Part shown: positions 3,145 to 63,279 of the stretch, piece by piece
Layout: every line of letters begins with the position of its first letter
Position numbering within the stretch: the first letter of the stretch is position 1
IMG/VR virus record: IMGVR_UViG_3300042905_002309
Location: 62,001 to 126,000 of that record
Reading direction: 5' to 3' (one strand)
DNA: 64,000 bases
DNA from: a virus
Notes under the pieces: model-generated
Database searches by the model: none
What the model saw: only the letters and a program-made list of their open reading frames with translations
What the model was told of the DNA's origin: nothing
Position numbers and translations under genes: made by a program

Positions 3145-3164
3145 AATTACATTTCCTTTTCAAT

Positions 3165-3172
3165 TATTTAGT
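3165..3172 (-). promoter_or_regulatory. late promoter before the small core protein and gp22
   Basis: Minus strand ACTAAATA, 20 nt before the start codon at 3144, followed by attgaaaaggaaatg with a normal ribosome site. Confidence 0.65.
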
Positions 3173-3202: not shown

Positions 3203-3622
3203 TTAATTTTTGGGTATCCATGTGTCTCCACCCATTACAATCTTTTTAATACTACCCACTTTAAATGATCTTGTTACTTTTTGACCATTTCTCGTAACAC
3301 ATAATCTTAATACACCATTTCGGGCATATTGAACTTTGGTATCAAGATTGGGATTACGAGTTTGACTAATATTATGTGAGCCTTTACAAGCCCCTAAACG
3401 TCCTGTGAGAGTCATAAGATCACCAGCTTTTTTGCTAGGATCAGTCTTACTATCTAATTCTCTTACAGCAGTTATCGATAAAATGTCTTTACCAGCTTGT
3501 GTGTGTGCGAACAGAAAGTTCGAAATGTCACTCTCATCTGTTGAATCATCTGTAGTAATATTCTTACGATTTAATGAATATTCACGTAAAGCTTCAACAA
3601 ATAATGTGAAATCTGCTTTCAT
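3203..3622 (-). CDS. prohead operon protein with putative capsid-targeting N-terminus
   Basis: 139 residues of unknown fold. The first residues, MKADFTLFVE|AL, look like the short amphipathic capsid-targeting peptides of T4 internal proteins, with a possible gp21 cut after FVE. The C-terminal half is rich in beta-forming residues (GVLRLCVTRNGQKVTRSF, then SIKKIVMGG). The start codon overlaps the stop of the upstream zinc-finger gene (3622), so the two are translationally coupled within the protease-scaffold operon. A head-internal or core role is inferred from position and N-terminus only. Confidence 0.6.
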   Translation of the reverse strand: MKADFTLFVEALREYSLNRKNITTDDSTDESDISNFLFAHTQAGKDILSITAVRELDSKTDPSKKAGDLMTLTGRLGACKGSHNISQTRNPNLDTKVQYARNGVLRLCVTRNGQKVTRSFKVGSIKKIVMGGDTWIPKN

Positions 3623-4117: not shown

Positions 4118-4789
4118 TTATCCTCTTAATGCTTTCATGAACTGTGCAAAACTCTCAACCATATAAGTATCTACGTCTTTCTTAGGAATAGCGTTAAGTC
4201 TGCATTGTAACGAATCACAAGCTAATTCAACGATTCTTCCACCCTCTGCAATGATATACTGACGATTTTCAGTAATACTTTCGAGAATAGCAGATTGGTA
4301 TGAAGGTTGATGAACAAGGTCAACTGCAATTAAATGGAAATTTTTAACCTTGTTGTACTTGCCTTCTTGAATCAATGAGCCAAGAGCACGACTAGAACAA
4401 CCAAGTTTCACACCATCAATAAGCAACTGCTTAACGATTACACCAGCAGGAGTAGAAAGAATTTTTGATCTACCGTAGAACACATTATCCTTCTGTTCTA
4501 ACTTGGTAATCATATGGCAAGCTTTGTCAAGAGATACGTCAGTAGATTCTTGAGGATGGTTTAATTCACCTAAAGCACGACTTTGTTTAATGAATTCTTT
4601 GTCATATCGGGTAACTTCATTAACCATTTCAGTTAAATCGTAGATACGGTTGTTCTGATTTGGTTGCGAAGCCAACATGTATGGCCCTTGAATATAAACA
4701 CTTCTTGGCTCGTTATTGTTCTTTTCTTCAACAATAACCTCTAAATCTTGGCTAAATTCGGTTTCTCTCAAATATTTTAATACTTGCAT
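4118..4789 (-). CDS. 21: prohead core maturation protease, T4 gp21-like
   Basis: 223 residues (T4 gp21 is 212). This serine protease digests the scaffold and trims the capsid protein and internal proteins after (L/I)xE sites. Catalytic features of the herpesvirus-like prohead protease fold are visible: the GELNHP motif with H78, and GCSSRALG with the nucleophile at S132 or S133. The segment between them (GRSKILSTPAGVIVKQLL) is typical of T4-type gp21. It is the first gene of the prohead operon, with a late promoter (CATAAATA) at 4827 and an AGGAG ribosome site. Confidence 0.92.
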   Translation of the reverse strand: MQVLKYLRETEFSQDLEVIVEEKNNNEPRSVYIQGPYMLASQPNQNNRIYDLTEMVNEVTRYDKEFIKQSRALGELNHPQESTDVSLDKACHMITKLEQKDNVFYGRSKILSTPAGVIVKQLLIDGVKLGCSSRALGSLIQEGKYNKVKNFHLIAVDLVHQPSYQSAILESITENRQYIIAEGGRIVELACDSLQCRLNAIPKKDVDTYMVESFAQFMKALRG

Positions 4790-4826
4790 ATGTTATTCTC
4801 CTGTGTAGAATCGCTTCTCTTTCAAG

Positions 4827-4834
4827 TATTTATG
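4827..4834 (-). promoter_or_regulatory. late promoter of the prohead operon
   Basis: Minus strand CATAAATA, 37 nt before the gp21 start codon, followed by a leader ending ACAGGAG. Confidence 0.65.
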
Positions 4835-4871
4835 TAAATAAATGTTAATTTCATCTTTTTTTATTAATCTA

Positions 4872-4899
4872 TTGACATTTAATACGAATGTGATATATT
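4872..4899 (+). promoter_or_regulatory. early sigma70-type promoter, leadered
   Basis: TTGACA, 16 bp spacer ending TGA, then TATATT. It drives the Ro60-like gene through a 57 nt leader ending in GAAAGG. The consensus -35 and extended -10 make it one of the best early promoters in the window. Confidence 0.7.
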
Positions 4900-4956
4900 A
4901 ATAAAGAATAGATTGAATACAGCAATAAAAATAATAACAGTCTGAAAGGTAAAAAA

Positions 4957-6369
4957 ATGAAAACAAACAGCAGAACATGTAACGGCGCAAACGCATTCGA
5001 ACACTCAGAAAACCATCTTTTGGAATTCTTTTCCAAGGCTGGATCATTATACACAAAGAAGGAGAGTTACTACGGTAATGAGTCTTCTGCTTTGGAATTG
5101 TTCAAAACTGCTTGGAGAGCAGATGCTGAAAAGGCTATGAAGTTGCTTTTCTGGTTGCGTGATTGCCGTGGTGGTGCAGGTAACAGAAGTGGTACAAGAG
5201 AAATCTTAACTTGGTTGGGCAATACTCACTCAGAATGGGTAAATGCCAATATCAACCTTATCCCTAAGTATGGTCGTTGGGATGATTTAACCGCTTTGTA
5301 TAACACTCCTTGTGAGAACTCAGCATTAGCTTGTTGGGAAACTGGTATCTTGGGTGATGATTCTGTTTGTGGTCTTGCTTCAAAGTGGGCTGATAGACAG
5401 GATGTAAAGCTTCGTAAGCATATGAAGCTTTCTCCAAAGGCTTTCAGAAAGCTTGTTGTACAGAAGACTAAGGTAGTTGAAACCATTATGTGTAATAACG
5501 AATGGGCTAATATCAACTATTCTACAGTTCCTTCTGTAGCTTCTGCTCGTTATAAGAACGCTTTCAAACGCCATGATGCACAGTATGAGGAATGGGTTAA
5601 GTCTTTGACAAAAGAAGGTACTGAAACCAAGGTCAATGCTGAAACATTGATGCCTCATGATATTGTAAGAATGGTACAGACTGACATCAATGATGCTACT
5701 ACTGGTGCATTAGCTGATGCTCAGTTGAAGGCTATGCCTAATTTCATGGAAGGTACTAATTACAGAATTATGCCTATTTGTGACTTCTCTGGTTCAATGC
5801 ATGTTCAAATGTCTGGATCAATTCAGGCATATGAGGTGTCTTTGGCATTAGGGTTGTATTGTTCTGAAAAGGTTGGTTCAGAGAATCCTTTCTACCGTAA
5901 GGTGATTCCATTCTCTACCGATTCTAAGATCGAGTCTTGGAAGAATAAGTCTTTTGCACAAGCTGTAAGAGATATTCCTAACGGGTATTGTGGTGGTACG
6001 AATATTCAGAAGGCTTTGAACAAGATTCTTGAAGCAGCTACTTTATTCAATGTTACGAATGATCAGATTCCTAACGTCTTGTTAATTCTTTCTGATATGC
6101 AGTTCGATCAGGGTGTTGAAGATTGTGGTACACCTGTAAACGAATCTTTGGCTAAGTGGAAGTCTGCTGGTTATGATATTCCAAAGGTAATCTATTGGAA
6201 TCTTGCTGGTAATGCTGGACAACCTGCTACTTGTGCAGACAAGAATGTTGCCTTGGTAAGTGGTTTCAGCCCATCAGTATTGAAGGCAGTATTGGGTGGA
6301 ACAGACTTTAGCCCTATTGCCATCATGAATAGTGCAATTAGTAAATATAATGTAGTAGTTCCAAACTAA
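4957..6369 (+). CDS. TROVE/Ro60-like protein with vWA domain
   Basis: 470 residues. The N-terminal ~250 residues are helical and HEAT-like, with the Ro60-type motif WLRDCRGGAGNR near 65-76 and YGRWDDL near 105. The C-terminal part is a von Willebrand A domain with a complete metal site: DFSGSM near 275-280, GGTN near 346 and LSDMQFD near 377-383. Ro60/TROVE and the related DUF2828-type proteins bind small RNAs (Y RNAs for Ro60) in RNA quality control. The gene has its own early promoter, faces away from the head operon and ends overlapping an HNH gene. Three small repeated transcription units lie 0.75-1.7 kb downstream. Its role in the phage is unknown; an RNA chaperone or host-RNP mimic is inference. 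Confidence 0.8.
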   Translation: MKTNSRTCNGANAFEHSENHLLEFFSKAGSLYTKKESYYGNESSALELFKTAWRADAEKAMKLLFWLRDCRGGAGNRSGTREILTWLGNTHSEWVNANINLIPKYGRWDDLTALYNTPCENSALACWETGILGDDSVCGLASKWADRQDVKLRKHMKLSPKAFRKLVVQKTKVVETIMCNNEWANINYSTVPSVASARYKNAFKRHDAQYEEWVKSLTKEGTETKVNAETLMPHDIVRMVQTDINDATTGALADAQLKAMPNFMEGTNYRIMPICDFSGSMHVQMSGSIQAYEVSLALGLYCSEKVGSENPFYRKVIPFSTDSKIESWKNKSFAQAVRDIPNGYCGGTNIQKALNKILEAATLFNVTNDQIPNVLLILSDMQFDQGVEDCGTPVNESLAKWKSAGYDIPKVIYWNLAGNAGQPATCADKNVALVSGFSPSVLKAVLGGTDFSPIAIMNSAISKYNVVVPN

Positions 6370-7067: not shown

Positions 7068-7085
7068 ATTTCATACTCCTATAAT

Positions 7086-7093
7086 TATTTAGT
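7086..7093 (-). promoter_or_regulatory. late promoter of the HNH gene at 6366-7067
   Basis: Minus strand ACTAAATA-attataggag, 18 nt before the ATG. It is leadered with a ribosome site. Confidence 0.65.
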
Positions 7094-7422: not shown

Positions 7423-7441
7423 AATTATTCTCCGTTTTAAT

Positions 7442-7449
7442 TATTTAGT
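7442..7449 (-). promoter_or_regulatory. late promoter of the double zinc-ribbon gene
   Basis: Minus strand ACTAAATA-attaaaacggag before the start codon at 7422. Confidence 0.65.
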
Positions 7450-13317: not shown

Positions 13318-13521
13318 ATGCCATTTATAACTAAAAACATTGACGGTAAAAGTGAAGTACAAGTTCGTGCGATATTAGCAGGATTGTTCTCATTAGCTAT
13401 TATTGCTGGTTTCTTCTGTGCTTTAATCACTGCGGATTCATTTATGGGTATTGCTACAATGGCTATTACCTATTATTTTGCAAAAAGAAATACTGAGGAA
13501 GGTAAAACAATCAATAAATAA
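13318..13521 (+). CDS. small membrane protein
   Basis: 67 residues. Two hydrophobic stretches at about 25-43 (AILAGLFSLAIIAGFFCALI) and 48-60 (SFMGIATMAITYYF) suggest a two-pass or hairpin membrane protein, with short charged ends (KRNTEEGKTINK at the C-terminus). Size and topology would fit a holin or other small inner-membrane phage protein, but no family is recognised. It is the only convincing membrane protein in the window. The stop overlaps a convergent HNH gene. Confidence 0.7.
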   Translation: MPFITKNIDGKSEVQVRAILAGLFSLAIIAGFFCALITADSFMGIATMAITYYFAKRNTEEGKTINK

Positions 13522-14191
13522 AATTGGTCTTTTCTGGTACTTTATCGCCTTTAGATAGATTTTCACGTACTAATAATGGTTGAAGATTTCCCCAATGATT
13601 AGCTATCTTCTGATTGGTTTGGTCTATTAAATCATTATCCGCAAAGAACTGTAATGGTATTATATGATCTACATGCCATACTTTACCATAATTTTCTCTT
13701 GTCATTCCATCACGAAATTGTTTTTCTAAATGATTCCATACTTCTTCTATCGTACAACAAAAGGATTCTATTGTTGATGTGTATTTAGAATTATTTTTTA
13801 ATGCTTTATTACGTCTTCGTCTTAAATTATGTAATAACTTATAATTAGAATCAGTTTTTAATCTTGTTTTAACATATGAATTATCACGAGTCTGTTTTAT
13901 GGTTCTATTTTCTTTGTTATATTTCTTTACGTAATTTTTAATATGTAATCTATGTATTTCATTATTATCATATTTATCTTTTCGTTTTTCTTTTATTACT
14001 GTTTTATTTAAAACTCTATACTGACGAAGATAATCAATATTTTCAGTTCTATGTAGTAATCTATACTGTTTATTACAAAGTTTACAGTTGTTCTGGTGTC
14101 CGTCTAACGCTTTAGTGTATTTTGAGAAATCGTCTATAGATTTAATCTCATTACATTTAAAACATTTTTTGGTATCATTTTGACTTGTCAT
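13511..14191 (-). CDS. zinc-finger HNH endonuclease, family with RNA leader (copy C)
   Basis: 226 residues. The N-terminal zinc finger is CFKCNEIKSIDDFSKY...NCKLC. A long basic helical middle follows, and the C-terminal HNH domain is GKVWHVDHIIPLQFF with QKIANHWGNLQPLLVRENLSKGDKVP. The same domain order and wording appear in the proteins at 16749-17405 and 48616-49341. The gene has its own late promoter and the three-way-junction leader at 14219-14280. It converges on the small membrane protein with an 11 bp 3' overlap. The family is a free-standing homing endonuclease. Confidence 0.88.
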   Translation of the reverse strand: MTSQNDTKKCFKCNEIKSIDDFSKYTKALDGHQNNCKLCNKQYRLLHRTENIDYLRQYRVLNKTVIKEKRKDKYDNNEIHRLHIKNYVKKYNKENRTIKQTRDNSYVKTRLKTDSNYKLLHNLRRRRNKALKNNSKYTSTIESFCCTIEEVWNHLEKQFRDGMTRENYGKVWHVDHIIPLQFFADNDLIDQTNQKIANHWGNLQPLLVRENLSKGDKVPEKTNFIY

Positions 14192-14218
14192 TTAAACTCA
14201 CCTTTATAAATATTGATG

Positions 14219-14280
14219 TACAGGACAGCTATACTCACCTGTAGTTTCTATAAACAAACCACTGTTTATAGATTACTGTA
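14219..14280 (-). promoter_or_regulatory. three-way-junction leader RNA, copy C
   Basis: Minus strand, 5' to 3': P1 UACAG, UAAU, P2 CUAUAAAC/GUUUAUAG, AAA, P3 CUA/UAG, CUGUC, P1 CUGUA. The three junction strands UAAU, AAA and CUGUC are identical in copies A and B, while all stems differ in sequence yet still pair. It lies about 9 nt after the predicted late start site and 27 nt before the HNH start codon. Confidence 0.75.
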
Positions 14281-14294
14281 TCTCTTCTTTTAAT

Positions 14295-14302
14295 TATTTA
14301 GT
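14295..14302 (-). promoter_or_regulatory. late promoter of HNH cassette C
   Basis: Minus strand ACTAAATA-attaaaaga, feeding directly into the structured leader. Confidence 0.65.
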
Positions 14303-16641: not shown

Positions 16642-16649
16642 ACTAAATA
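16642..16649 (+). promoter_or_regulatory. late promoter of HNH cassette A
   Basis: ACTAAATA-attgaag. The predicted start is at about 16655, only 3 nt before the first pairing base of the structured leader. Confidence 0.65.
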
Positions 16650-16657
16650 ATTGAAGA

Positions 16658-16720
16658 AACAGTAATCAAGGAGCAACTAACTACCTTGAAACAGACGGGT
16701 TATCAATCTGCTGTCCTGTT
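16658..16720 (+). promoter_or_regulatory. three-way-junction leader RNA, copy A
   Basis: 5' to 3': P1 AACAG, UAAU, P2 CAAGG/CCUUG with a 12 nt loop, AAA, P3 CAGA/UCUG with an 11 nt loop, CUGUC, P1 CUGUU. Junction strands are identical to copies B and C. It lies 28 nt before the HNH start codon. Confidence 0.78.
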
Positions 16721-16748
16721 CCTAAAGTATTTAGAAAGGGTTATGCAA

Positions 16749-17405
16749 ATGGAAGAGATTACTACAAAAGTTTGTTCAAAATGTAAACAAGATAAGTCTA
16801 TCACAGAATTTTATATGGATAATAAAACTATTGATGGTTATAAAGTGTGGTGTAAAGACTGTTTTAAACTTTATAAACAAAAATATTATATGGATAATAA
16901 AATTGAAATTTCAATAAAACGCAAAGAATTCAAAATAAATAATAGTATTAAAGTTAAAAATCAGCGTAAAAAATCTGATATTAAAAATAAATTACATAAA
17001 AGGGATTATTCAAAATTATATTTTCAGCAAAATAAAACACAAATAAATCAGAAAAAACGATTAAAATATAAAACTGATTTTAATTATCGTTTAATTGTAA
17101 TTAATAGAAATCGAGTAAATGAAACAATTAAAAATAAAACATGTTCGTCTATTGATTTATTTTGTTGCACACCACAAGAAGTTAGAAATCATTTAGAGCA
17201 ACAATTCAGAGATGGTATGAATTGGATAAATTATGGATCATTATGGCATATTGATCATATAATTCCATTAGATTTCTTTGATTTAAATAATTCAACCGAA
17301 CAAAAGATTGCTAATCATTGGGGTAATTTACAACCGTTGTTAGTACACGAAAATATTTCAAAGGGTGATAATATACCAACACAAACTAATTTCAAATATT
17401 TATAA
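16749..17405 (+). CDS. zinc-finger HNH endonuclease, family with RNA leader (copy A)
   Basis: About 218 residues from MEEITTKV. Zinc finger CSKCKQDKSITEFYMDN...WCKDCF, a basic asparagine/lysine-rich middle, then GSLWHIDHIIPLDFF and QKIANHWGNLQPLLVHENISKGDNIP. It is closely related to the proteins at 13511-14191 and 48616-49341. I chose the ATG at 16749 because AAAGGG lies 8 nt upstream and copy B starts at the same place (MEE); the ATG at 16743 is the alternative. It is the only plus-strand gene among minus-strand structural genes, and its stop overlaps the stop of the gp15-like gene, so it looks like an inserted cassette. Confidence 0.88.
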   Translation: MEEITTKVCSKCKQDKSITEFYMDNKTIDGYKVWCKDCFKLYKQKYYMDNKIEISIKRKEFKINNSIKVKNQRKKSDIKNKLHKRDYSKLYFQQNKTQINQKKRLKYKTDFNYRLIVINRNRVNETIKNKTCSSIDLFCCTPQEVRNHLEQQFRDGMNWINYGSLWHIDHIIPLDFFDLNNSTEQKIANHWGNLQPLLVHENISKGDNIPTQTNFKYL

Positions 17406-49341: not shown

Positions 49342-49366
49342 TTTGACATACTCCTTATAAATATTT

Positions 49367-49432
49367 GAGCAGGACAGCAAGTAGTTTACTCCGCTTGTTT
49401 CAAGGTGATTGCAAGTCCCTTGATTACTGCTC
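49367..49432 (-). promoter_or_regulatory. three-way-junction leader RNA, copy B
   Basis: Minus strand, 5' to 3': P1 GAGCAG, UAAU, P2 CAAGG/CCUUG, AAA, P3 CAAG/CUUG, CUGUC, P1 CUGCUC. P1 is a perfect 6 bp helix here. Junction strands are identical to copies A and C. It lies 2 nt after the predicted late start and 25 nt before the start codon. Confidence 0.8.
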
Positions 49433-49439
49433 TTTTAAT

Positions 49440-49447
49440 TATTTAGT
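49440..49447 (-). promoter_or_regulatory. late promoter of HNH cassette B
   Basis: Minus strand ACTAAATA-attaaaagag running straight into P1 of the leader. Confidence 0.65.
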
Positions 49448-60741: not shown

Positions 60742-63279
60742 ATGGAAAAGGATTTTGGAATATATGTAGGTGTTTGTGTGCAAAATAATGACCCCGAAAT
60801 GCGTGGTCGTATTAAGATATATATTCCTCAATTATCACCAAATATTACAAGTTTGAATATAAATGTAGATAAATTCTTCAATTTTATTGATAAGAATAAT
60901 CCAGATATTACCTCTGCACTTACAGATTTAAAAGAAATACTTCCTTGGGCTGAATATGCTGGACCAATGTTTGGTGGCTGTGCTAGTGGTCGTTTTAATG
61001 CCTCTAACGGACAAGCTACGACTTCTGATTCAAATGCTTGGGATGGTGACAAGGTTGCTGATGGGGCTAGACCTGCGAACAATTTTGTAGGTTCAGATAC
61101 GTATCCTGATGCATTCACACAGACAATGGGACAACAAAACCGTAAAGTAAACGACTATGCCTACCAATACACACCATCTAATTATTCAAATTTAGCTAGA
61201 GGTGTATTCAGTATTCCTAACGTAGGTTCCCATTTATACACCTTCTTTATTAATGGTGATAGAAATTTCCCTGTTTATTTTGCATCAGCATATAGTGAAG
61301 AAGATGTTAAACGCATTTTTACTATGGCACAAGATGTTAATAATAATGCAAGTACTGATTATCCTCAATCCTACGAAAATAGAAAATTAAATCTAAGCGA
61401 ATCATCCGACTCTAAAACTTTCAGATCAAAAAGCGTATTCAATAGTAATAAACATACAATTGAAATGATCGACACAGATTTAAGAGAAATATTGAAATTT
61501 ACACATTATTCTGGATCATTTAAAGAATTTAATAATTATTCCACAATTGAATTAGCGACTAATAATGATCAAAAAATGGTTCTAGGTAATCAATTTTTAA
61601 CAACACAGAAAAATAAGAGCGAGTTTGTAAAGTATGATAACGAACAAATTATTTTTGGCGATCATTATAAAACTGTTGGTAATCCTAAACCCGATGTAGT
61701 GAATAAGATTTTAACTATTCAGAAAAACATTCACGAATTAAAGATGTTGTTTGACATGCAAAGAACTTCGTATACAACAATACCAACTAATTTAGATACT
61801 GCAACGATACCACAGAAATTTTTATCAATATATCAACAAAAACTTCCAATGATACATAATGTTGTATGTCCAGTTTGTAAAGGTTTGCCATATTTAGCTA
61901 TCTTTCCTGATCCTTTATACAGATTTGCCCCATTTGGATTGACCACGAATCCAGACCCACTAGGATTAAATAACTGGAAAGAAAACGCAAGATATGGTGG
62001 ATCGTGTTGGGATCGTACTACAAAACTTACTTTCGATGCAGACGGACATTTAGGATCATCAACCGAAGGTGTTGAAGGTTCTGGTATGACACTAGAAGAT
62101 ATGTTTGGTAGCGCAGAAGCAATGGCAGCAATTTTTGGTCCCGAAGGAGCTAATTCACAATTTATTCCGGGTTGTAACACATACTTTATACCGGGTGTTT
62201 CTGATAGTCCATATAATATGTACGGACCACCCTTTACTTGTGAACCCATACCTACACACATTTTAGATGGTTGTTATGGGGTATTTGCAGGACAATTTTG
62301 TAAATGTTGTAATCCAAAAGGTCAAATGGTTAAGAATCAATCCGCTGCATACGCACTTGGTATAGGATTATCACCATCATCCGAAGGTACTACATTCTTA
62401 CCTGAACCAAAGAAGTTACCAAATGGTGCATTAGATCAATTGATTATAACTACTGCACCAGCATTAACCGAATTGGAAAATAGTTTAGGTAGAGGTGGAG
62501 ATGAGATTATACAAATTACATCTAATAAAATTGAAACTATTGGAACAGTAATGAACGATTTGAAATCCATCAGAATTGACCCTATCGGTAAATTAAAAAT
62601 TGATGGATGTGTTGTAGCCGCACAAGGTACATATAATAATTTTAAACCTTCTCCACATGTTGAATATGTTGATGTAGTTGATTTACCAGGTGATTATATT
62701 TTAACTGCTATGAATAAATATAAATTACTAGTGGGGTCTAAAGGTGTAAATATTCAAACAACTGGACCAATTGATATCTATGGCACAATTGTTAATATCA
62801 CTGGTGAACAATTAAATATATCATCTGAAAATGAAATTATTGTTGATGGTGGTGAACGTTTAACATTAAGAGCTAGAAAAATAACATTATTACCAGTTGA
62901 ACATAATGCTGTTGTAGTTGAAGGGCAATTACACGTAACAAGAAATACTATCATACAAGGTGGACTTATGTGTGAAGGGGAAGTTGGTTTATTACATGTT
63001 ACTGCACCTATTGAATGGCAGAAAACTGAAATTGGTGCTTGGAATTTATTTCCTGATTGCGAACCTATTTTATGTAAGATTAATGGGGAATTTGCTACAG
63101 TAATATTACCTACACATTCACATTGGTTCAAAAATATTCCAATAAGATTTAAGCAACATAATGAAGCTGTACGTGAAGGTATGATTGAATTAGGTATTAA
63201 TTCTAGAAATAAGACAGCAACTTTATTACCTGCTGAATTAGGAGAAGCATTAACCACCACAGGATGGCAGCTTTCATAA
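60742..63279 (+). CDS. 5: baseplate hub / spike protein, T4 gp5-like without lysozyme
   Basis: 845 residues. The N-terminal OB-fold wording of gp5-type hubs is clear: GIYVGVCVQNNDPEMRGRIKIYIPQL, ILPWAEYAGPMFGG and GVFSIPNVGSHLYTFFINGDRNFPVYFASAY. A Cys-rich region (VVCPVCKGLPY near 376, GQFCKCCNPKG near 518) follows, then an IQITSNKIETIG / VNIQTTGPIDIYGTIVNITGEQLNISSENEI part that looks like a triple-stranded beta-helix spike. No lysozyme catalytic motif is seen. It ends with ILPTHSHWFKNIPI and a short globular tip. Probably the puncturing spike. Confidence 0.85.
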   Translation: MEKDFGIYVGVCVQNNDPEMRGRIKIYIPQLSPNITSLNINVDKFFNFIDKNNPDITSALTDLKEILPWAEYAGPMFGGCASGRFNASNGQATTSDSNAWDGDKVADGARPANNFVGSDTYPDAFTQTMGQQNRKVNDYAYQYTPSNYSNLARGVFSIPNVGSHLYTFFINGDRNFPVYFASAYSEEDVKRIFTMAQDVNNNASTDYPQSYENRKLNLSESSDSKTFRSKSVFNSNKHTIEMIDTDLREILKFTHYSGSFKEFNNYSTIELATNNDQKMVLGNQFLTTQKNKSEFVKYDNEQIIFGDHYKTVGNPKPDVVNKILTIQKNIHELKMLFDMQRTSYTTIPTNLDTATIPQKFLSIYQQKLPMIHNVVCPVCKGLPYLAIFPDPLYRFAPFGLTTNPDPLGLNNWKENARYGGSCWDRTTKLTFDADGHLGSSTEGVEGSGMTLEDMFGSAEAMAAIFGPEGANSQFIPGCNTYFIPGVSDSPYNMYGPPFTCEPIPTHILDGCYGVFAGQFCKCCNPKGQMVKNQSAAYALGIGLSPSSEGTTFLPEPKKLPNGALDQLIITTAPALTELENSLGRGGDEIIQITSNKIETIGTVMNDLKSIRIDPIGKLKIDGCVVAAQGTYNNFKPSPHVEYVDVVDLPGDYILTAMNKYKLLVGSKGVNIQTTGPIDIYGTIVNITGEQLNISSENEIIVDGGERLTLRARKITLLPVEHNAVVVEGQLHVTRNTIIQGGLMCEGEVGLLHVTAPIEWQKTEIGAWNLFPDCEPILCKINGEFATVILPTHSHWFKNIPIRFKQHNEAVREGMIELGINSRNKTATLLPAELGEALTTTGWQLS

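Follow-up and report, generated by a model that had tools for sequence, protein, structure and literature searches.

What is a conserved, structured element doing in front of a DNA-cutting enzyme? This question is raised by a 64,000 nt stretch of viral DNA (the window; positions 62,001 to 126,000 of IMG/VR record IMGVR_UViG_3300042905_002309), in which the original prediction recognised three copies of a three-way junction, A at 16658-16720 (+), B at 49367-49432 (-) and C at 14219-14280 (-). Re-reading of the sequence gave the same positions. The order P1, UAAU, P2, AAA, P3, CUGUC, P1 was confirmed, the junction strands being identical in the three copies, and so were the stems, which differ yet still pair: AACAG/CUGUU (A), GAGCAG/CUGCUC (B) and UACAG/CUGUA (C) for P1; CAAGG/CCUUG in A and B and a different paired stem in C for P2; CAGA/UCUG (A), CAAG/CUUG (B) and CUA/UAG (C) for P3. 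The proposed spacing, 2-9 nt past the predicted late start and 25-28 nt before the start codon, is about right in all of them. As claimed, each copy is followed by one of three related HNH genes (35-49% identity to HEG-A):

16749..17405 (alternative start 16743), plus strand: HEG-A, HNH endonuclease; inserted cassette, absent at this site in the relative L461
48616..49341, minus strand: HEG-B, HNH endonuclease
13511..14191, minus strand: HEG-C, HNH endonuclease

The pattern CAGTAATC-N-GAAAC-N-CTGTCCTG occurs 3 times in the window vs 0 times in 100 shuffles, and the parent virus record (248 kb) carries six copies of the element, three more than could be seen in the window. Beyond what had been noticed, we observed a late-promoter box on the opposite strand, an SD-region copy within the P3 loop, and a second arrangement of the element, each described below.

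The covarying junction is real. A covariance model built from 19 outside sequences, with the window copies excluded, found A, B and C at E values of 1e-5, 1e-5 and 2e-4, respectively, and gave 109 matches in 100 sources. Pattern scans of IMG/VR gave copies in excess of chance, and a structural filter, which let nothing pass in shuffled control sequences, left at least 150 distinct ones. The proposed search beyond the window thus returned further covariation-supported copies linked to nucleases, HNH genes included. Among 108 distinct sequences, 90.9% of cells pair and 11 of the 13 pairs show changes on both sides. The covariation score was 0.77 vs 0.18 for shuffled sequences and 0.08-0.17 with slid pairing, and the third P1 pair is CG in 29, GC in 28, AU in 25 and UA in 25, with zero wobbles. 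Covariation in the collected copies is overwhelming. About 12 junction bases and the three closing pairs are essentially invariant, and the junctions UAAU/AAA/CUGUC (GACAG/UUU/AUUA on the other strand) are invariant in A2 and A3. In all elements, P1 positions 2-4 take every Watson-Crick type with almost no G-U, which is unusual for RNA helices.

The fold, which had not been recognised initially, matches no Rfam 15 family. At the gathering threshold there was no match to the element in the window or in ten element-bearing loci, where the sole matches were group I introns in locus L033; relaxing the threshold to E up to 10 brought, in eight other loci, nothing but chance matches to eukaryotic families, away from the elements. 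No match to the element was found in T4, Aeh1, S-PM2, P-SSM2, SPO1, Twort and other cultured phages, and BLAST of the elements against 50,697 phage records returned no clear copy; the element thus has no cultured representative yet. A scan of genome contigs gave mostly chance matches, the only real ones being L062 (same contig as L005) and L066. A literature search, with subscription papers and supplements outside its reach, found the element described nowhere. We rate the element as a new RNA family.

We then call P the strand on which the element was originally read and M its reverse complement, with the layout P1-GACAG-P3-UUU-P2-AUUA-P1. Among the at least 150 copies, a gene start lies 24-48 nt away on the P strand in 47, including those of the window (class P), on the M strand in 73 (class M), on both strands in 8 and on neither in 22. 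The P strand had been taken as the folded RNA, and this did not hold: in class P, the MFE structure closes all three junction pairs in 74% of cases for the M strand vs 12% for the P strand. Similarly, the figures for class M are 64% vs 32%. Copies A, B and C all fold correctly on the M strand, and C fails on the P strand. The count of wobble-type pairs also speaks for the M strand (58 vs 29), while at bridging mismatches the wobble asymmetry was uninformative, with no signal separating the strands. The MFE strand preference and the wobble bias thus point to the M-strand RNA as the folded RNA in both classes. On this strand, the elements of the window are:

16656..16722, minus strand: element A, three-way-junction RNA, antisense to HEG-A; covariance model E 1e-5; MFE structure is the junction, -20.4 kcal/mol
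49366..49433, plus strand: element B, three-way-junction RNA, antisense to HEG-B; covariance model E 1e-5; MFE structure is the junction, -23.2
14217..14282, plus strand: element C, three-way-junction RNA, antisense to HEG-C; covariance model E 2e-4; the plus strand folds into the junction and the minus strand does not

The loops of these elements were compared with the start regions of the adjacent genes:

16697..16703, minus strand: element A P3 loop, reverse complement of GGGTTAT, the SD region of HEG-A (7-nt match)
16738..16744, plus strand: HEG-A SD region GGGTTAT, predicted target of the antisense P3 loop
49387..49392, plus strand: element B P3 loop, anti-SD copy (GGAGTA on the minus strand)
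49349..49354, minus strand: HEG-B SD region GGAGTA
14233..14240, plus strand: element C P3 loop, anti-SD copy (AGGTGAGT on the minus strand)
14196..14203, minus strand: HEG-C SD region AGGTGAGT

In class P, the antisense P3 loop carries 6-10 nt complementary to the SD region of the adjacent gene in 84-87% of cases (chance about 11-16%); when all loops and flanks were compared, a match of at least 6 nt was seen in 87% (control 16%). In class M, it is the P2 loop that is complementary to the SD of its own gene, in 86% (control 23%). The remaining loop/flank combinations stayed at control level in class P and class M alike, and no partner was found for the class P P2 loop. The own-gene match was 7.02 nt in class P and 6.35 nt in class M, vs 4.26 and 4.14 nt, respectively, upon permutation, and 0 of 2000 permutations reached the observed value in either case. 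The loop therefore fits the start of its own gene and not SDs in general; about 13-16% of members show no 6-nt match. In leaders devoid of an SD (L388, L407, L546 and L551), it is the bases immediately preceding the AUG that recur in the loop (e.g. ACACTTTAAAA followed by TG in L407), which rules out a 16S rRNA decoy. On the class P mRNA strand, from -400 to +700, we found neither a cis partner for the P3 segment nor a complement of the gene's own SD. A structured leader with predicted SD pairing in cis, as in translational riboswitches, was seen in class M only; complementarity to the target's translation start, as in antisense control, was present in class P, SD-less starts included. The M-strand RNA carries an anti-initiation loop in both classes, P2 in cis and P3 for a target on the opposite strand.

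Class M P3 loops are also palindromic, over at least 6 nt in 60% vs 8% of controls, which suggests that they could form kissing-loop dimers. On the folded strand the palindromes include TTGCAA, TTCGAA, TCATGA, CTGCAG and TCCGGA (e.g. L171, L190, L204, L209, L229 and L303).

Each element of the window lies between two late-promoter boxes facing each other:

16643..16649, plus strand: late-promoter box CTAAATA of the HEG-A mRNA
16728..16734, minus strand: opposing late-promoter box CTAAATA at element A, antisense RNA predicted to begin near 16722, where P1 ends
49440..49446, minus strand: late-promoter box CTAAATA of the HEG-B mRNA
49356..49363, plus strand: opposing late-promoter box TATAAATA for the element B antisense RNA
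14295..14301, minus strand: late-promoter box CTAAATA of the HEG-C mRNA
14205..14212, plus strand: opposing late-promoter box TATAAATA for the element C antisense RNA

This arrangement recurs in class P. A P-strand TAAATA box stands upstream of the element, at a fixed distance, in 90% (11% in shuffled sequences), and an M-strand TAAATA box lies between the element and the SD in 80% (shuffled 3.6%), again at a fixed distance, mostly 8-13 nt from the junction. In class M, the P-strand box is at chance level. TATTTA was present in 40 of 50 class P leaders vs 18 of 402 (4.5%) other genes of the same loci; it was found in 0 of 37 HNH relatives without the element. The box-to-start spacing of T4 late promoters is established, and for copy A it places the predicted starts near 16655 and 16722, at either end of P1. 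The stretch shared by the predicted sense and antisense transcripts coincides almost exactly with the element. For the antisense RNA, the predicted start falls downstream of the SD complement; in copy A that RNA would thus lack the complement of 16738-16744, and the P3 loop (16697-16703) supplies precisely that. A source of antisense RNA in which the M strand is simply the operon strand holds for most loci, but exceptions exist, and these are explained by a dedicated opposing promoter: at L231, L251, L295, L413 and L417 the gene runs with its neighbours and the opposing box is still present. The sequence ACTAAATAATT occurs exactly at window positions 14292-14302, 16642-16652, 49437-49447, 3162-3172, 7083-7093 and 7439-7449 and is probably the late-promoter consensus of the window phage.

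The linkage to HNH genes stood in so far as copies do precede such genes, but it is not specific: GIY-YIG, DUF723/DUF7487 and TnpB-like proteins and tail chaperones are found as well, and also a DnaB. Nor is the element a property of the HNH family first considered, since among its 80 best HNH relatives only the copies of the same phage carry it. Class P genes encode GIY-YIG, NUMOD, HNH, DUF723, DUF7487 and endonuclease-VII-like proteins, together with TnpB-like proteins carrying a Cas12f1-like TNB domain (L388, L407 and L546). The leaders of these TnpB/Cas12f-like genes (L388:8507-10108, L407:209-1420 and L546:5927-7546) lack an SD. In class M these kinds of gene are joined by tail assembly chaperones, primase-polymerases, a DnaB and others. 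The partners are mostly HNH, GIY-YIG, DUF723/DUF7487 and TnpB-like nucleases. The majority of class P genes run antisense to the genes on either side, their stop codon abutting that of the neighbour, or are placed antisense within tRNA arrays.

A relative, L461 (portal 81% identical), has a short intergenic region at the HEG-A site, with no endonuclease, element or P-strand promoter, and its portal gene keeps its own late box. From this single example, endonuclease, element and promoter apparently entered together or were lost together. L359/L392, considered as a second empty site, both carry the cassette. Downstream of the L461 portal gene, positions 4820-4990 hold the C-terminal remnant of an HNH gene related to HEG-A and HEG-C, a decaying endonuclease cassette.

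We consider it likely that these elements form a family of small structured RNAs repressing translation of phage mobile nucleases, as antisense RNA in class P and in cis in class M. The class P RNA appears to be made from the strand opposite the nuclease gene, and as its loop matches the translation start of that gene, it probably restrains the nuclease; more generally, the element RNA probably keeps the neighbouring DNA-cutting enzyme in check. In class P, two late promoters would face each other across the element, one making the nuclease mRNA and the second an antisense RNA from the outer end of P1. This RNA would start too late to contain the SD complement, hence the separate anti-SD copy in its P3 loop, which would pair with the nuclease SD in trans. 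The shared 60-70 nt of sense and antisense RNAs would permit further pairing, so that binding would involve loop-loop contacts plus the P3 loop at the SD and would block ribosome entry. Class M genes sit on the M strand itself; here a pseudoknot between the P2 loop and the SD would form in cis and likewise keep ribosomes out. Directly supported are the fold, its covariation, the strand preference, box placement, the match between loop and initiation site, the nuclease linkage and the absence of the whole cassette at one site in a relative; antisense transcription, RNA-RNA pairing, repression and its timing we infer, the antisense RNA and its promoter being predicted from sequence. Of the functions originally suggested, a translational switch comes closest: the translational role is our best reading, but it is predicted to operate via the opposite-strand RNA and not via the strand first read. 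A broader and tentative extension is that one junction scaffold serves as a general 'safety catch' for unrelated mobile nucleases, in cis (P2) or as antisense in trans (P3), with the cis form dimerising via its palindromic P3 loops. Repression would then be concentration-dependent, following that of the RNA and hence phage copy number.

Could the element instead act within the nuclease mRNA as its own 5′ leader, for example as a translational switch whose P3 copy of the SD is a ribosome decoy or standby site? The mRNA is indeed predicted to start at P1, which makes the element its 5′ end. However, junction folding on the P strand is limited to those 12% of class P and fails in copy C, the mRNA offers no cis partner, and the opposing promoter box is left unaccounted for. 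The loop moreover follows the context of its own gene, SD-less leaders included, for which 16S pairing cannot account. We regard such a leader as improbable. Since class P genes mostly point the opposite way from the genes on both sides, with stops that abut the upstream gene, the main role of the opposing promoter might be to drive the next host gene: a replacement promoter, with an M-strand RNA giving a protective 5′ structure, would favour retention of the cassette, and nuclease control would be secondary. Promoters are known to occur inside homing endonuclease genes of T4 (PMC2988022). This is unlikely in our judgement, as it does not account for the gene-specific anti-SD loop, the box persists in copy C and at five further loci although the next gene is off that strand, and the portal gene of L461 has a late box of its own.

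The near-invariance of about 12 junction bases and three closing pairs is more than a scaffold seems to need, and a binding pocket or catalytic core would explain it if the element were a ligand-binding riboswitch or a self-cleaving ribozyme that also gates the SD. Both had been suggested and we found nothing in their support: no Rfam riboswitch or ribozyme matched, and the linked genes share no metabolite logic and suggest no ligand. A hammerhead was rejected, the junctions UAAU/AAA/CUGUC differing from its core CUGANGA/GAAA/NUH, with CUGANGA absent and no Rfam match. Either identity thus seems doubtful. Recognition by the endonuclease itself, the last of the earlier suggestions, is unlikely because one junction is common to unrelated nucleases and non-nucleases. 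A feature acting at the DNA level, a cruciform or a folded single strand that serves as a recognition site during homing, replication or packaging, would fit the almost purely Watson-Crick helices and the very few G-U pairs in P1. This purity extends to class M, where one strand only should matter, and counts against the repression reading, as do the partnerless P2 loop of class P, the palindromic P3 loops of class M, the bridging mismatches that do not separate the strands and the 13-16% of members lacking a 6-nt match. Nevertheless, both loop relations aim at the translation start, the folding strand preference is clear and the element also precedes tail and replication genes, which makes a DNA feature highly improbable.

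Translational repression of the nuclease, the reading we prefer, has partial parallels. Few selfish genes are commoner in phages than homing endonucleases, and the quieting of their unrelated families has been studied case by case in T4. In IS10, transcription from an opposing promoter yields the antisense RNA-OUT, which pairs with RNA-IN where translation of the mobile-element gene begins. The predicted class P RNA is similar, as an opposing-promoter antisense pairing with the start of a DNA-cutting gene; RNA-OUT, however, is a hairpin overlapping the start region directly, whereas the element's antisense RNA would miss the SD and carry a copy of its complement in a three-way-junction loop. 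The preQ1 and SAM-II translational riboswitches are pseudoknots in which an upstream loop pairs with the SD, as predicted for class M, but the element has no known ligand, no Rfam 15 match and no common metabolite among its partners. HEARO and OMEGA RNAs are non-coding RNAs beside the HNH/TnpB nucleases IscB and TnpB in mobile elements. The element likewise adjoins HNH or TnpB nucleases in mobile elements, but it has no Rfam match, lies 5′ of the gene, is common to GIY-YIG and HNH homing endonucleases that use no guide, and aims its matching loop at the gene's own start and not at a DNA target. In T4-type homing endonuclease genes (I-TevI, SegB, Aeh1 MobE), hairpins hide the RBS on early read-through transcripts in cis (PMC2988022). 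There too, RNA structure limits translation of a phage homing endonuclease and a late promoter lies beside the gene, as predicted for the element. Those hairpins were described individually and in cis, in contrast to one conserved junction for unrelated nucleases, on the antisense strand in class P; the class P mRNA, with no complement of its SD from -400 to +700, is not predicted to fold over its own RBS, whereas class M would do so via the junction pseudoknot.

That the element accompanies HNH, GIY-YIG, DUF723/DUF7487 and TnpB-like nucleases across very diverse phages suggests that mobile cassettes bring along a shared, portable module of RNA control. If true, it would be a rare case of a single RNA fold serving both in cis and as antisense RNA. 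The model offers precise predictions (two start sites, loop/start-site pairing and compensatory rescue), and the element provides a motif for annotating mobile nucleases in viral metagenomes.

Finally, in L208, L219, L229, L241, L285, L289, L290, L293, L303, L306, L307 and other loci, a class M element precedes what appear to be tail assembly chaperone genes, and that side carries no endonuclease; there the element may be a domesticated regulator or a remnant. In L033, two group I introns (3283-3565 and 4591-4885) lie near a class M element and endonuclease genes.
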